Origin: Nitriliruptorales bacterium
GTDB taxonomy: Bacteria; Actinomycetota; Nitriliruptoria; Euzebyales; JAHELV01
Assembly: GCA_024644015.1 (NCBI GenBank)
Contig: JAHELV010000010.1
Coordinates: 59,983-94,921, forward strand
Length of the DNA: 34,939 nt
Direction of reading: 5' to 3'
Under the pieces are notes generated by a model. That model saw only the letters and a program-made list of their open reading frames with translations, did not search any database and was not told the origin of the DNA. How positions within the stretch are numbered: the stretch's first letter is position 1; every line of letters begins with the position of its first letter. Of this stretch, positions 128-18,837 are shown in pieces. The translations under genes and the position numbers were made by a program.

Positions 128-1693
128 TCAGACGTCCTGCGAGGCCGCGACCAGCGGCCGGGCGGCGCGGATGCGATCCAGCACGACCGCCCGGTCCATG
201 ACCGCGAGCGTCTCGGGCAGTGGCGGGCTGACCGCGCTGCCCGCCACCGCCACACGCACGGGCTGGAACGTCTTGCCCCGCCCCAGCTCGAGGTCGGCTG
301 CGACGCCGTCGAGCGCCTGCAGGATCGCATCGTCGGACCACGGCTGGAGCTCGTCGAGCGCCGCGACGGCCGCGTCGAGCACCTCACCCGCCCGACCCTT
401 CAGGTGCTTTCGGACCGCCCGCTCGTCATAGCGGATCTCATCGGTGAAGCAGAAGCCGATCAGATCCACGGCCTCGGCCAACGTCTGGATCCGCTCCTGA
501 ACGAGCGGCGTCAGCGCGACGAGCAGGTCACCCTGGTGAGCGGTCACGTCCGGTGGCAGCACTCCCGCCTCGACCAGATAGGGCTCCAGCCGGTCGGCGA
601 GCTCACCGACCGGCAGATCGCGGATCCGGTCACCGTTCATCGACCGCAGCTTGTCCGTGTCGAACGCGGCCGGGTTTCGACCGACCCGGTCGAACGAGAA
701 CCGTTCGATGAGCTCGTCGGTCGTGAAGCGCTCCGTCACGCCGTCGTAGCTCCACCCGCACAGCGCCAGGAAGTTGACCAGCGTCTCGGGGAGGAATCCC
801 TGGCGCCGGAACTCGTCGATCGCCACGGACCCGTGGCGCTTGGACAGCGGTTTGCGGTCGTCACCGACCAGCAGCGGCAGATGCGCATACCGCGGCGGCG
901 ACGGGTCGGTGACACCGTTGACGCCGGCAGATGCCAGCCCACTCACGAGCACCGAGCCACCGTCGCCTGCCGGCGCCAGCAGCCGGGAGGCCAGGAGCAC
1001 CTGCCGTGGCGTGGCCGACAGCAGGTCCTCACCCCTGGCGACCAGCGTGATCCCCATCGCCAGGTCGTCGACGGTGTTCGCCAGCAGGTACGTCGCTGTC
1101 CGATCGGCCCGCTGAATCACGAAATCGGCGACGTCGACCCAATCGAAGGTGACGTTGCCGCGCACGTCGTCGGCGATGGCGACGATGCCGGTATCAGGCG
1201 TACGCAGTCGCAGCACCGGGGTACGGCCCTGGGCGCGGAACTCGTCACGCTGGGCGGCGGTCAGGTCACGATGCCCGCCCTCGTAGCCGGGCGGACGACC
1301 TGCCGACCGCGCGGCCTCGCGCTGCGCCTGCAGCTCCTCGGGGGTCTCGAACGCCTCGTAGGCGGCGCCGGAGCGCAGCAGCAGGTCGGCCACGGCAGCG
1401 TAGAGGTGCTGCCGTTCGCTCTGCCGGTAGGGACCGAACACCCCGCCGACCTGTGGCCCCTCGTCCCAGTACAGGCCCAGGAACTGCAGCGCGTCGATCA
1501 TGCCCTGCATCGACTCGTCGGTGGCCCGCTCGGCGTCCGTGTCCTCGATGCGGAACACGAACGCACCACCGTGGTGGCGTGCGTAGAGCCAGTTGTACAG
1601 CGCCGTCCGGGCGCCGCCGACGTGCAGCCATCCGCTCGGCGCCGGGCAGAAGCGCACCCGCACGGGGTGGGTCGGGGTGGACATCGCGCTCAC
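128..1693 (-). CDS. gltX: glutamyl-tRNA synthetase
   Basis: Class I aminoacyl-tRNA synthetase that ligates glutamate to tRNA-Glu and, in most Actinobacteria, also to tRNA-Gln before GatCAB amidation. The ATP-binding HIGH-type motif is seen as SGWLHVGGARTALYNW near residue 25, followed by FRIEDTD, and the KMSKS loop as KPLSKRHGS. The 521-residue length is normal for the family. The start is taken as GTG at 1693, giving a 4-nt GTGA overlap with the stop of cimA, which suggests translational coupling; an ATG three codons downstream (1684) is an alternative. The signature reads PAPSG instead of the common PSPTG, a variant I associate with deep actinobacterial GluRS. A tRNA-Gln gene follows directly. 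Function is confident; whether it is discriminating cannot be read from the sequence. Confidence 0.95.
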   Translation of the reverse strand: MSAMSTPTHPVRVRFCPAPSGWLHVGGARTALYNWLYARHHGGAFVFRIEDTDAERATDESMQGMIDALQFLGLYWDEGPQVGGVFGPYRQSERQHLYAAVADLLLRSGAAYEAFETPEELQAQREAARSAGRPPGYEGGHRDLTAAQRDEFRAQGRTPVLRLRTPDTGIVAIADDVRGNVTFDWVDVADFVIQRADRTATYLLANTVDDLAMGITLVARGEDLLSATPRQVLLASRLLAPAGDGGSVLVSGLASAGVNGVTDPSPPRYAHLPLLVGDDRKPLSKRHGSVAIDEFRRQGFLPETLVNFLALCGWSYDGVTERFTTDELIERFSFDRVGRNPAAFDTDKLRSMNGDRIRDLPVGELADRLEPYLVEAGVLPPDVTAHQGDLLVALTPLVQERIQTLAEAVDLIGFCFTDEIRYDERAVRKHLKGRAGEVLDAAVAALDELQPWSDDAILQALDGVAADLELGRGKTFQPVRVAVAGSAVSPPLPETLAVMDRAVVLDRIRAARPLVAASQDV

Positions 1694-3312
1694 GCGGTCG
1701 ACACCTCGGCCCCGGCCGTCCTGCGCACGGCGGTCGCGTAGGCGTCCTCCATCGCCTTCCAGGACGCCTCGATGACATTCGACGACACGCCAACCGTGTC
1801 CCAGTCCTGCTCGCCGTCGGTCGAGCGGATCAGCACCCGCGTGGTCGCGCCGGTACCCGCGTTCTGGTCGAGGATCCGCACCTTGTAGTCACGCAGATGC
1901 ATGTCGGCGATGGCGGGCAGTCGTCCGGCGAGCGCCGCACGGAAGGCCTGATCGAGCGCGTCGACGGGGCCGTTGCCCTCGCCCGTGCCGATGAACCGCT
2001 CGTCGCCGACCCACACTCTGACCGTCGCCTCGGCGACGATCCGCCCATCTGCGCGCCGTTCGACGATCGTGCGGTAGCTCTCGAGTCGGAAGTGCTCGCG
2101 CAGCAGGCCGGTCTCGGCACGGACCAGCAACTCGAACGACGCGTCCGCGGCTTCGAACGTGTAGCCGATGTGCTCGAGGTCTTTGATCCTGTCGAGGATC
2201 CGGTCCGCGACCGTTCGGTCGGACTCCAGGTCCAGCCCGAGCTCGCGACCCTTGAGCACGACGGTCGATCGTCCAGCCAGTTCGCTGACCAGCAGTCGCA
2301 GGCTGTTGCCGACGAGCTCCGGCTCGACGTGCTGGTACAGATCGGTCCGACGCGCCAACGCGGAAACGTGCAGCCCCGCCTTGTGTGCGAAGGCGGCATG
2401 CCCGACGTACGGCGCGTGCGGGTCGGGCGTGAGGTTCATGATCTCGGCGACCTCATGGGCGACGTGCGTCAGACGCGACAGGTCGTGGTCGGTCACGACA
2501 TCGAGCCCGAGCTTGAGCTTCAAGTTCGGGATCAACGACATCATGTTGGCGTTCCCGCAGCGCTCGCCGATACCGTTGACCGTGCCCTGGACGTGGCTCG
2601 CTCCTGCCAGCAGGCCGACCACCGAGTTCGCGACCGCGCAGTCTGCATCGTTGTGGACGTGCACGCCGACCGCGGCTCTGGCACCCACGTCGTCGACGAC
2701 CCCTGCCACGACGTCACGGACCTGCGCGGGCAGCGCGCCGCCGTTGGTGTCGCACAGCACCACGCACTCGGCGCCGGCGTCAACAGCGGCCTGCAGGACG
2801 GCGGCCGCATAGCCGGCGTCGCGGCGGTGGCCGTCGAAGAAGTGCTCGGCGTCGAACAGCACGCGGCGGCCCTCGGCGCGTAGCAGCTCGATCGAGCTGG
2901 CCACCATCGCGAGATTCTCATCGCCGCTCGTGCGCAGCGCCGCCTCGACGTGCAGCGTGTCGGACTTGCCGACCAGGCAGATCACCGATGTGTCGGCGCT
3001 GAGCAACGCCTCCAATGTCGGGTCCCCGGCTGCTTGGGCGTTGGGCCGCCTGGTCATGCCGAACGCCGTGAGGACGGCGCGCGACAGCTCGAGCTCACCG
3101 GCGGCGGCGCGTTTGAAGAACTCGGTGTCCTTCGGGTTGGCACCCGGCCATCCGCCCTCGATGAAGGTCACGCCGAGCCCGTCGAGGATGCGCGCGACCC
3201 GCAGCTTGTCCTCGACGGTGAGCGAGATGCCCTCCTGCTGGGTTCCGTCACGCAGCGTCGTGTCATACAGCTGCGGCACAGCTGCGGGCACAGCCTCGGA
3301 TGTCACGGTCAC
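1690..3312 (-). CDS. cimA: (R)-citramalate synthase, CimA type
   Basis: Condenses pyruvate and acetyl-CoA to (R)-citramalate, the first step of the threonine-independent route to 2-oxobutyrate and isoleucine. It has a DRE-TIM barrel starting LYDTTLRDGTQQEG near residue 15, where QQEG replaces the EQAPG of LeuA, then FIEGGWPGANPKD, metal-site HVHND and the GIGERCGNANM loop, and a C-terminal LeuA-dimer-like regulatory domain (about residues 400-520). The 540-residue length and the GGWPG signature favour CimA over LeuA, and a genuine leuA is also in the window. The GTG start at 3312 has GAAAGG about 9 nt upstream. It is the first gene after its own promoter and leader (3313-3515), and its stop overlaps the gltX start. 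Likely regulated by isoleucine through the upstream Ile-codon leader (inference). Confidence 0.9.
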   Translation of the reverse strand: MTVTSEAVPAAVPQLYDTTLRDGTQQEGISLTVEDKLRVARILDGLGVTFIEGGWPGANPKDTEFFKRAAAGELELSRAVLTAFGMTRRPNAQAAGDPTLEALLSADTSVICLVGKSDTLHVEAALRTSGDENLAMVASSIELLRAEGRRVLFDAEHFFDGHRRDAGYAAAVLQAAVDAGAECVVLCDTNGGALPAQVRDVVAGVVDDVGARAAVGVHVHNDADCAVANSVVGLLAGASHVQGTVNGIGERCGNANMMSLIPNLKLKLGLDVVTDHDLSRLTHVAHEVAEIMNLTPDPHAPYVGHAAFAHKAGLHVSALARRTDLYQHVEPELVGNSLRLLVSELAGRSTVVLKGRELGLDLESDRTVADRILDRIKDLEHIGYTFEAADASFELLVRAETGLLREHFRLESYRTIVERRADGRIVAEATVRVWVGDERFIGTGEGNGPVDALDQAFRAALAGRLPAIADMHLRDYKVRILDQNAGTGATTRVLIRSTDGEQDWDTVGVSSNVIEASWKAMEDAYATAVRRTAGAEVSTA

Positions 3313-3342
3313 GGCATGGCCTTTCGGTTCGTTGCAGTGGCC

Positions 3343-3396
3343 GGTGCCGGATGCGGAGCGCGCTGGTGCGGCCCGAGGGCCGGCACCAGCTGCCGG
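3343..3396 (-). promoter_or_regulatory. cimA leader: mutually exclusive hairpins
   Basis: Downstream of the Ile-rich leader peptide four segments can pair in alternative ways on the minus-strand RNA. A (3391-3396, CCGGCA) pairs with TGCCGG inside B. B (3377-3390) pairs with C (3362-3374) in a 13-bp stem with one bulge. The GGTGCCGG of B (3380-3387) is also perfectly complementary to D (3343-3350, CCGGCACC), which sits about 30 nt before the cimA start. Segment A begins 2 nt after the leader stop codon, so a terminating ribosome would cover it. There is no T-run after B:C, so a classical intrinsic terminator is unlikely; control of translation or Rho access is more plausible (inference). Confidence 0.55.
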
Positions 3397-3398
3397 TC

Positions 3399-3479
3399 CT
3401 ATCGGGACCCGCGGATAATGATCATGCAGATCTGGCCGACCACGTGCCGGCGCGTTGAGGATCGCATGATCGCGCGCAT
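3399..3479 (-). CDS. Ile-rich leader peptide of cimA (26 aa)
   Basis: A 26-codon ORF, ATG at 3479 to TAG at 3399, ending in QICMIIIRGSR. Five of its 26 codons are isoleucine, including three consecutive (ATC ATT ATC, residues 20-22) close to the stop. It sits between ilvE and cimA, the isoleucine-specific committed enzyme, and is followed at once by alternative hairpins. No Shine-Dalgarno precedes the ATG, but a promoter-like -10 lies 7 nt upstream, so the peptide is probably translated from a leaderless transcript. I read it as the sensor of an isoleucine attenuator. Family knowledge: such leader peptides stall ribosomes when the cognate charged tRNA is scarce. No homologue search was possible. 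Confidence 0.65.
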   Translation of the reverse strand: MRAIMRSSTRRHVVGQICMIIIRGSR

Positions 3480-3486
3480 GGACGCG

Positions 3487-3515
3487 ATTGTGCCGGAACG
3501 TGACGCAGAACTCAA
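3487..3515 (-). promoter_or_regulatory. putative promoter of the cimA leader
   Basis: On the minus strand TTGAGT (3515-3510) and CACAAT (3492-3487) are separated by exactly 17 nt, resembling a housekeeping sigma-70 promoter. The last base of the -10 is 7 nt from the leader ATG, so transcription would start at or next to that ATG. It lies just after the ilvE stop codon and would give cimA-gltX a promoter independent of leuB-ilvE. Confidence 0.5.
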
Positions 3516-3528
3516 CCGGCCCGCCGGC

Positions 3529-4452
3529 TCACGCGACCTGCACACGATCGAGCATGTGGGCGTAGCGCGGGTCCTTGCCCGCAACGACATCGAAGAAGAC
3601 GTCCTGCAGCCTTCGGGTGATCGGCCCCGGAGGACCGAGTTCGCGATCGTCGACCTCGCGGATCGGTACGACCTCGGCGGCGGTGCCGGTGAAGAAGGCC
3701 TCCTCGGCGACGTACAGGTCCTGGCGCAACAGGTCGCTCTCGGCGAAGGGGATGGACAGGTCGCGCGCGAACTCGATGATCGTGTCACGCGTGACGCCTC
3801 GCAGGACGCCCGCCGTCAGCGGTGGCGTCAGCAGCGTGCCGTCGCGGACGATGAACAGGTTCTCGCCCGAGCCCTCGGCGACATGGCCGTGCTCATTGAG
3901 CAGTACCGCCTCGTCGTAGCCGGCCTGCAGCGCCTCCACCTTGGCCAACGACGAGTTGATGTAGACCCCGCAGGCCTTGGTGCCCGTCGGGATCATGTTG
4001 CTGCCGATGCGGGTCCACGTCGAGGTCTTTGCGCGAACGCCGTTTCTCAGACCCTCCTCGCCGAGGTAGGTACCCCACGGCCACACGGCGATCGCCACCC
4101 GCACACGGCTGGGCAGTGGATTGAGGCCCATCTCGCCATACCCCAGGTAGGCCAACGGGCGGATGTAGCACGACTCGAGCTCGCTGCCGCGGATCAGCTC
4201 GCGGGTCGCAGCCATGAGCTCGTCGACGCTGTAGGGCACGGTCATCTGCAGGATGCGTGCCGATCGGTGGAGCCGCTCCATGTGCGCACGATGCTGAAAG
4301 ACCGCCGGCCCGCCCGCCGTGGCGTAGGCCCTGATGCCCTCGAACACACCCCAGCCGTAGTGCAACGTCGGCGTCAGCACATGGACCGTCGCACTGTCCC
4401 AGTCTACGAACGCACCGTCCATCCAGATCTTGTCGACCGCTGTGATCGGCAT
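3529..4452 (-). CDS. ilvE: branched-chain amino acid aminotransferase
   Basis: PLP-dependent fold-type IV transaminase for the last step of Val, Leu and Ile synthesis, with glutamate as donor. It opens with the family pattern KIWMDGAFVDWDSATV, then HYGWGVFEGIRAY. The Schiff-base lysine is K159 in GTKACGVYINSSLAK, and EGSGENLFIVRDG plus the TAGVLRGVTRDTI phosphate-binding stretch follow. The 307-residue length is typical. ATG at 4452; GGAAGG lies about 12 nt upstream, a rather long spacing. It is 41 nt downstream of leuB, so the two probably form one transcript, and it is followed by the separate cimA promoter and leader. D-amino-acid or aminodeoxychorismate-lyase relatives share the fold, but context and motifs support IlvE. 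Confidence 0.93.
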   Translation of the reverse strand: MPITAVDKIWMDGAFVDWDSATVHVLTPTLHYGWGVFEGIRAYATAGGPAVFQHRAHMERLHRSARILQMTVPYSVDELMAATRELIRGSELESCYIRPLAYLGYGEMGLNPLPSRVRVAIAVWPWGTYLGEEGLRNGVRAKTSTWTRIGSNMIPTGTKACGVYINSSLAKVEALQAGYDEAVLLNEHGHVAEGSGENLFIVRDGTLLTPPLTAGVLRGVTRDTIIEFARDLSIPFAESDLLRQDLYVAEEAFFTGTAAEVVPIREVDDRELGPPGPITRRLQDVFFDVVAGKDPRYAHMLDRVQVA

Positions 4453-17103: not shown

Positions 17104-18660
17104 TCATGGGGTGTCGGTGACCGCCCGCGCTCGGTGACGCAGGCGGACCGACTTGTTGATCGCGGACAGGAAGGCCCGGGCGCTGGCCTCGACGATGTCG
17201 GTGGATACGCCCCGGCCGGTGATGCGCCTGCCGTCGACCTCGACCTGCACGGTCACGTCACCGAGAGCGTCGATACCTCCGGTGACCGCGGCGACGTTGA
17301 ACGTTACCAACGTCGCATCGACTCCCACCGCGCGGCGGATCGCACCGCAGGCAGCGTCGACCATGCCGTCTCCCATCGCCGACTCGTCGATCGTGACGTC
17401 GTCGACCGTCCTGCGGACGCGCACCGTGGCGGTTGGTGCCGACGCGGTGCCGCCGGAGACCTGCAGGGACTCCAGTTCGAAGACATCGTCGACGCTGGCC
17501 GAGACTTCGTCAGCGACGATGGCTTCGAGATCGATGTCGGTCAGCTCGACCTTGCGGTCGGCCAACTCCTTGAACCGTGTGAACGCGCGAGCCAGCTCGC
17601 CGTCGGACAGCTCGTAGCCCAGCTCGGACAGCTGCTGCGCGAAGGCATGCCGTCCGGAGTGCTTGCCGAGGACGATCTGCGCACCGGTCAGCCCGATGTC
17701 CTCGGCGCGCATGATCTCGTACGTCAAGCGGTCCTGCAGCACGCCGTGCTGGTGGATGCCGGATTCGTGTGCGAAGGCGTTGCGTCCGACGACCGCCTTG
17801 TTGAACTGCACCGGGTAGCCGGTGAGCGCCGTGACCATGCGAGACGTTCGAGCGATCTCCGGCGTGACGATCTGCGTCGAACGTTGCAGCAGATCGGAGC
17901 GGGTCGCCAGCGCCATCACCACCTCTTCCAGCGAGCAGTTCCCGGCGCGCTCCCCGATGCCGTTGACCGCGACCTCGACCTGGCGGGCGCCGTTGCGCAC
18001 GGCTTCCAGCGAGTTCGCGACAGCGAGACCGAGGTCGTTGTGGCAGTGCACGCTGACACCGACGCCCGCGCCCACACGCCCGACGATCTCGGCGATCAGG
18101 GCGCCGAAGTCGTGCGGCAGCGCATACCCCACAGTGTCGGGGATGTTGACGGTCGTGGCGCCGGCCTCGACGGCCACGTCGACGACCTTCAACAGGAAGT
18201 CGTGGTCGGTGCGGGTCGCGTCCTGCGGGCTGAACTCGACGTCGTCGGTGTACGTGCGTGCGTGCCGCACGGACTCGGCGGTCGACGCAAGGATCTCGTC
18301 CTCGGAGGCGCGCAGCATCGCACGCCGGTGGATCTCGGACGTCGACAGGAACACGTGGATCCGTGACCGCGCCGCCCCCTTCAGTGCGGCGGCCGCACGA
18401 TCGATGTCGCCACGCGCGCACCGGGCGAGCGCGGCGATCACGGGCGCGTCGCCTCCGACGCCCACCTCTTCGGCGATCGCCTTGACGCCGTCGAAGTCAC
18501 CCTGCGACGTGATGGGGAATCCGGCTTCGATGACGTTGACGTTCAGCCGGGCCAGCTGGTCGGCGATCTCGAGCTTCTCCTTCACCCCCAGCGATATGCC
18601 CGGAGCCTGCTCGCCGTCGCGCAGCGTCGTGTCGAAGATCTCTACAGCGGTGGTGTGCAT
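17104..18660 (-). CDS. leuA: 2-isopropylmalate synthase
   Basis: Condenses acetyl-CoA and 2-oxoisovalerate, the committed step to leucine. The DRE-TIM barrel begins VEIFDTTLRDGEQAPGISL, followed by VIEAGFPITSQGDF, EFSPQDATRTD, the metal site HCHNDLG, GIGERAGNCSLEEV and GKHSGRHAF. The C-terminal regulatory LeuA-dimer domain with VTGGIDALGDVTVQVE is intact, so leucine feedback inhibition is likely. It is 518 residues, the bacterial type 1 (about 510-520) form rather than the longer form of Mycobacterium. ATG 18660 has GAGGAG 9 nt upstream. That Shine-Dalgarno is complementary to Leu codons of the upstream leader peptide, implying leucine-responsive translation. Downstream come a small ORF, leuC and leuD. 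Confidence 0.95.
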   Translation of the reverse strand: MHTTAVEIFDTTLRDGEQAPGISLGVKEKLEIADQLARLNVNVIEAGFPITSQGDFDGVKAIAEEVGVGGDAPVIAALARCARGDIDRAAAALKGAARSRIHVFLSTSEIHRRAMLRASEDEILASTAESVRHARTYTDDVEFSPQDATRTDHDFLLKVVDVAVEAGATTVNIPDTVGYALPHDFGALIAEIVGRVGAGVGVSVHCHNDLGLAVANSLEAVRNGARQVEVAVNGIGERAGNCSLEEVVMALATRSDLLQRSTQIVTPEIARTSRMVTALTGYPVQFNKAVVGRNAFAHESGIHQHGVLQDRLTYEIMRAEDIGLTGAQIVLGKHSGRHAFAQQLSELGYELSDGELARAFTRFKELADRKVELTDIDLEAIVADEVSASVDDVFELESLQVSGGTASAPTATVRVRRTVDDVTIDESAMGDGMVDAACGAIRRAVGVDATLVTFNVAAVTGGIDALGDVTVQVEVDGRRITGRGVSTDIVEASARAFLSAINKSVRLRHRARAVTDTP

Positions 18661-18744: not shown

Positions 18745-18837
18745 TCAAAGAATGAGGAGGCCGGCAAGGCACGCGAGCAGCACGAAACGACGCGCGCTCG
18801 TCGAGCACGTGCCGGCTGCTACTTCGCGATCATGCAC
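18745..18837 (-). CDS. Leu-rich leader peptide of leuA (30 aa)
   Basis: A 30-codon ORF, GTG 18837 to TGA 18745, ending FVLLACLAGLLIL. Six of its last eleven residues are leucine, including two adjacent pairs (CTG CTC and CTC CTC) and a final CTT. It lacks a Shine-Dalgarno, but a TTGACA/TAGTAG promoter is positioned so that transcription would start at or next to the GTG. A second GTG two codons upstream (18843) is inside the -10 region and therefore unlikely. It resembles the leucine leader peptides of actinobacterial leuA genes. The hydrophobic end could also mimic a membrane segment, but location and structure favour a leader. Confidence 0.65.
   Translation of the reverse strand: MHDREVAAGTCSTSARRFVLLACLAGLLIL

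Follow-up and report, generated by a model that had tools for sequence, protein, structure and literature searches.

In this study, we believed that cimA, the citramalate synthase gene, is probably tuned to the isoleucine supply through charged tRNA-Ile by a ribosome-mediated attenuator, and comparison of its upstream regions makes it very likely that the short leader in front of the gene senses Ile for cimA. The locus was analysed in a stretch of 34,939 nt from a Nitriliruptorales bacterium (the whole of this stretch is called the window below), in its relatives and in other Actinomycetota.

The isoleucine leader upstream of cimA and its conservation in Nitriliruptoria

The leader ORF sits between ilvE and cimA, and all three are on the minus strand. 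The features of the locus, in window coordinates, are as follows.

3529..4452, minus strand: ilvE, the gene upstream of the leader, given as context (TIGR01122, 406.9 bits, cut-off 245.55)
3510..3515, minus strand: -35-like hexamer TTGAGT, read from the sequence; the identical hexamer occurs at 17 nt in the congener L004
3487..3492, minus strand: -10-like hexamer CACAAT, 7 nt upstream of the leader ATG
3399..3479, minus strand: leader peptide ORF of 26 codons, MRAIMRSSTRRHVVGQICMIIIRGSR and stop, from ATG at 3479 to TAG at 3399
3414..3422, minus strand: putative regulatory Ile run ATC ATT ATC, within the leader end CMIIIRGSR
3320..3325, minus strand: Shine-Dalgarno sequence (SD) GAAAGG of cimA, read from the sequence
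1690..3312, minus strand: cimA, citramalate synthase, the putative regulated gene (TIGR00977, 658.7 bits, cut-off 450)

The cimA product scores about 200 bits above the cut-off of the citramalate synthase equivalog model; its gene starts with GTG at 3312, and 86 nt separate the leader stop from it. The initial annotation had described a 26-codon ORF with an ATC ATT ATC run before cimA and a promoter-like pair at 17-nt spacing, and both are present. The two hexamers jointly match 8 of 12 consensus bases and were missing from the list of the promoter scan because its threshold was 9 of 12. Since the leader ATG follows the -10-like hexamer at 7 nt, the arrangement suggests leaderless or near-leaderless translation. 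It had also been argued that cells using the citramalate route need to sense Ile at cimA and not at ilvA. This argument was weakened, because the genome also encodes a threonine dehydratase, which scores above the cut-off of TIGR01127, and citramalate therefore need not be its only route.

The genus, order and class of the window were searched with cimA, and the upstream regions were read in cimA orientation. Among 37 orthologous leaders from the class Nitriliruptoria, which are mutually related and some of which were found through the stem/Ile motif, 34 have a run of two or more Ile codons close to the stop, and in 29 the run reaches three; an Ile adjoins the last Ile in 34/37 and another stands two codons before it in 29/37. 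In the set anchored on cimA itself, the stem/Ile motif was found in 25 of 30 loci, the loci without it being L010, L012, L016, L017 and L023. These five belong to family f2 of the same order, in which cimA has no Ile leader of any kind. In families f1, f3 and f4, the Ile-rich short ORF ends about 90-165 nt upstream of the cimA match, and it is found upstream of cimA in degraded form in family f5 (L025).

ATC and ATT interchange within the Ile run of the 37 sequences, as would be expected if the amino acid rather than the bases were conserved. ATT makes up 34 of the 113 Ile codons in the Nitriliruptoria leaders versus 3 of 475 in the cimA coding sequences (p ~2e-23), and 2.8% of the Ile codons in sampled coding sequences of the window's own genome (own-genome controls were sampled from stretches of up to 20 kb). 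A CACACT, CACAAT or CAGACT hexamer directly precedes the in-frame leader start in all 17 pattern-bearing loci (families f1 and f3), and at each of these 17 loci with a recognised -10-like pattern the start is in frame with the stop that follows the Ile codons. From this frame and codon evidence, the leader looks translated. The search for Ile enrichment in orthologous leaders, proposed as a check, came out positive: the run, ATT, the frame and a covarying hairpin are kept through Nitriliruptoria.

A covariance model (R1) was built on the leader core and scanned against 397 genomes of the phylum. It matched in 31 genomes, 30 of which belong to the window's class with one strong match each, and the 29 in-class matches that were directly checked are all located before cimA. 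This indicates a specific element, with one R1 match per class genome, directly upstream of a gene of the Ile pathway. The 31st match (G208/L063) was an unrelated plain terminator and was taken as chance, and so were two matches in the window's own genome (L031 and L033), which lie inside coding sequence.

Isoleucine leaders before cimA in other Actinomycetota

In 52 named cimA upstream regions from other Actinomycetota, an upstream ORF with at least two consecutive Ile near its stop was present in 22, compared with 1.8 expected from dinucleotide shuffles of the same regions and none on the reverse strand; for Ile triplets, 7 were observed and about 0.1 were expected in total. Rare ATT was again in excess, with 20 of 42 leader Ile codons versus 11 of 298 in cimA (p ~3e-13). 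Many of these leaders share a plan, namely a short, apparently leaderless Ile leader, a strongly covarying GCGCG hairpin and an intrinsic terminator with a U-run, which was seen in Nonomuraea, Acrocarpospora, Kribbella, Amycolatopsis, Kutzneria, Micromonospora, Cellulosimicrobium, Cellulomonas and others. An antiterminator pairing was looked for in this U-run form by folding and was not found. A survey of 80 cimA upstream regions, which was skewed towards the best-scoring TIGR00977 members, gave 8 Ile pairs versus 8.7 in shuffles and 6 triplets versus 0.7. In other phyla, Ile pairs were not enriched (5 versus 5.1). A single case was noted in Anaerolineales of the Chloroflexota (L128), where an upstream ORF ending QQQAIIIS and a stop lies about 110 nt before cimA, with a hairpin and then a T run after it.

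A second model (R2), describing the U-run form of the cimA leader, was scanned across the phylum. The best 14 R2 matches all precede cimA, and most of them are from a Streptomyces-like genus with genomes of 6-10 Mb. The tally of 62 genomes matched by R2 was rejected as a count of cimA leaders, as the weaker matches resemble ilvB, leuA or leuS leaders. The leaders of the Streptomyces-like genus (L146, L147 and L149-L157, near position 1500) have a hairpin with a conserved long loop, CCGGTCCGCAGTGACC..., and their matches span 118-126 nt versus about 78 nt elsewhere, with the cimA match 220-320 nt downstream. The cimA leaders of family f27 (L235, L236, L243, L246, L247 and L271) end in IIIIR, IIIIL, IIIIS or IIIP, and most of them have, after the hairpin, another GC-rich hairpin that carries a T run, which is the U-run form.

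Alternative hairpins and the proposed switch

Between the end of the leader and cimA, two hairpins (S1 and S2) and a spacer were recognised in the window.

3399..3409, minus strand: 5' arm of S1, GGTCCCGATAG, the leader's last codons and stop, in a stem that covaries class-wide
3370..3376, minus strand: 3' arm of S1, TCGGGCC, which by inspection pairs with 3402-3409 and leaves one bulge
3362..3390, minus strand: alternative hairpin S2, GCTGGTGCCGGCC-CTCG-GGCCGCACCAGC (p=0.011 in the window)
3326..3361, minus strand: C-rich, G-poor spacer without a T run, from S2 to the cimA ribosome-binding site, a possible Rho entry

In the class form of S1, CCGCTCCCGTAG pairs with CTGCGGGAGCGG and encloses CCGG..CCGG, and the stop codon of the leader lies within the stem. 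In an alignment of 32 relatives, which was fitted to the structure and thus biases the counts, six pairs showed double changes, none of 500 shuffles reached that number, and 93.5% of the cells pair; when just the 12 seed sequences were taken, covariation did not exceed that of shuffles. S1 was better than random 5' arms from the same locus at p<=0.05 in 33/37 sequences, and S2 was better than random 3' tails at the same level in 29/37. S2 uses the 3' arm of S1 as its top (mostly as a GGGA loop) while the flanking segments pair, and the two are mutually exclusive as nested hairpins. The Ile codons lie outside both of them. The last Ile codon is 8 nt from the S1 core in every sequence with a recognised core, and the first Ile of the run is mostly 11-14 nt from S1.

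A simple folding model, in which the ribosome masks RNA to about 13 nt from the A site, was applied to the 37 sequences. With no ribosome, S1 won in 31/37; with the ribosome on the first, second and last Ile, it won in 24, 12 and 1, respectively, and S2 won in 25 on the second Ile and in 36 on the last. With the ribosome on the stop, S2 kept at least 4 pairs in 31/37. Because S1 still wins at the first Ile in 24/37 and the stop favours S2 in 31/37, the direction of the switch is uncertain. The S1 of the window itself is weak (p=0.064) and did not form in this model; S2 won in every modelled ribosome state of this sequence, and the predicted switch is therefore argued for this genome from its relatives.

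Over the 110 nt that follow the leader stop, no U-run was found (the longest T run is 3 in the class and 1 in the window), and the scan of the minus strand listed no terminator-like site. Because no U-run follows, the leader, judged from its downstream bases, is not an ordinary intrinsic-terminator attenuator of the trp or ilvB type. The earlier claim of a leader-peptide attenuator on cimA therefore stands for the Ile run, the frame and the stem, which are conserved, and falls in the narrow sense of an intrinsic terminator with a U-run. The window's own genome has a leuS leader, MAAALLLSPPR and stop, with a U-run terminator (L174, about 578-660, G000:C81), so the absence of the U-run at cimA is no property of the organism. 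The congeners G002 and G003 have similar Leu leaders upstream of leuS. A second candidate leader was noted in the window at 18837..18745 on the minus strand, before leuA (17104..18660); this GTG-initiated ORF of 30 codons, VHDREVAAGTCSTSARRFVLLACLAGLLIL and stop, has a Leu-rich end, lies after TTGACA-17-TAGTAG and is followed by a GC-rich hairpin without a U-run.

The spacer of the window holds about 17 C and 8 G in 35 nt, as counted by eye. In the class, its mean composition is 0.45 C and 0.30 G, with C above G in 35/36, and C exceeded G in about 40% of the gene upstream regions sampled from the own genome, a small control of 20 regions. By its base composition, the C-rich spacer fits Rho-dependent termination. 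We speculated that, when Ile-tRNA is sufficient, the ribosome would clear the Ile run, end at the stop and leave; S1 would then form, the short C-rich leader transcript would be ended early and cimA would stay low. Given the missing U-run, Rho would probably assist this early end. Under a shortage of Ile-tRNA, the ribosome would wait on the ATC/ATT codons and cover the 5' arm of S1, S2 would form instead, and cimA would be made. In this scheme, an output through termination rather than through translation control is rather likely, and the assignment of S1 as the OFF structure is an even bet.

The polarity could also be reversed as in the classical trp scheme. S1 would then be the antiterminator, formed while the ribosome is stalled on the first Ile, and S2 the terminating hairpin, formed while it sits on the stop. 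The distance of the first Ile from S1, which is about that of the leading edge of the ribosome, and the modelled outcomes at the first Ile and at the stop speak for this order, but S2 lacks a U-run too and wins once the ribosome stands on the second or the last Ile, and we consider the reversed order rather unlikely. Slightly less likely still is translational attenuation, in which the alternative hairpins would expose or hide the ribosome-binding site of cimA and transcription would not be ended. The missing U-run would agree with it, and so would actinobacterial precedents without obvious terminators, namely the LEU element of leuA and the cys leaders (PMC1262725); in the thermodynamic folding model, the SD became more open with a stalled ribosome in 13 sequences and less open in 4. 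However, the mean unpaired probability of the SD rose only from 0.38 to 0.43, inconsistently across sequences, the ends of S1 and S2 lie some 40-115 nt upstream of the start codon, and an anti-SD shared among the sequences was not seen. Sequestration of the SD, tried by folding, showed no consistent effect.

Two further readings would do away with the attenuator itself, and both are very improbable. The window alone shows just a short ORF, and a conserved hairpin could constrain the last codons of a chance Ile-rich frame, or persist without any translated leader; but the Ile run is not part of S1 and hardly varies except by exchange of ATC and ATT, rare codons are in excess, the start is in frame at every recognised locus, and the enrichment is on the sense strand only. 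Similarly, a T-box, a riboswitch or a protein-binding element might merely overlap the ORF, and ileS is indeed under T-box control in some Actinobacteria (PMC1262725). However, the window region and ten loci gave no Rfam match at the gathering score, to the T-box model or any other, only chance-level ones with E above 1, and the middle part of the leader RNA is not conserved among relatives. We therefore kept to ribosome-mediated attenuation as the preferred explanation. Across the phylum, we tentatively propose, at somewhat less than even confidence, that Ile attenuators act on cimA widely and that Nitriliruptoria, instead of the intrinsic terminator, use a U-less two-hairpin switch with the stop codon in the stem, which would probably end transcription with the help of Rho.

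Comparison with known attenuators

Studies have shown that trp, cys, ilvB, leuA, leuS and ileS are preceded by regulatory elements in Actinobacteria (Seliverstov et al. 2005, PMC1262725), and RNA-seq of S. lividans has listed eight leaders, alaL, ilvL, thrL, trpL1/2, leuL1/2 and metL (PMC8079986, Table 4); neither source has one at cimA. The initial annotation knew of no described Ile-leader attenuator for citramalate synthase, and no description of one was found in the open literature, to which the paper search was confined, or in Rfam. Neither Rfam, searched with the window region and ten loci, nor NCBIfam, searched with the leader peptides, returned a match. Attenuation at ilvB and leuA is well known, but no account was found of a leader that controls the entry to isoleucine by way of citramalate. 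If our reading is true, a large part of the Actinomycetota, including the Streptomyces-like group, would sense Ile at cimA. It would supply a missing regulatory step to the pathway in many genomes and matter for the metabolic engineering of Ile and of products derived from 2-ketobutyrate, and attenuators with and without a U-run on the same gene would offer a natural comparison.

The cimA leader resembles the actinobacterial ilvB (ilvBNC) attenuators, for example Corynebacterium IlvL MTIIRLVVVTARRLP (PMC1262725, PMC10272879, PMC11857589), in its short leader with branched-chain codons, its target in branched-chain biosynthesis, its hairpins that overlap or follow the leader end, and its start at or next to the transcription start, which is here predicted from sequence. 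IlvL is reported to be translated from leaderless or nearly leaderless mRNA (PMC11857589). In contrast to the ilvB attenuators, the target is cimA, the codons are those of Ile, and in the Nitriliruptoria form a U-run terminator is missing and the stop codon sits inside the stem. Similarly, the S. lividans leaders are short, mostly leaderless and carry regulatory codons, and leuL1 is also without a typical terminator (PMC8079986); a cimA leader is absent from that list, whereas one is present in a Streptomyces-like genus here. The LEU element at leuA likewise has an amino-acid codon run that overlaps RNA structure and no intrinsic terminator (PMC1262725), but its codon run pairs with the SD of leuA, whereas the Ile codons of the cimA leader are not part of the stem, and in the folding model no consistent pairing of the SD was found.

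From its sequence features, we believe that the cimA leader resembles a leader-peptide attenuator and probably functions as one, and we keep it out of the intrinsic-terminator family because the U-run feature fails. It also has counterparts in the phylum-wide cimA leaders of the R2 form, with the same gene, an Ile run, rare ATT and a hairpin about 11-14 nt past the first Ile; in those leaders an intrinsic terminator directly follows the hairpin, whereas the class of the window has S2 and a C-rich spacer.
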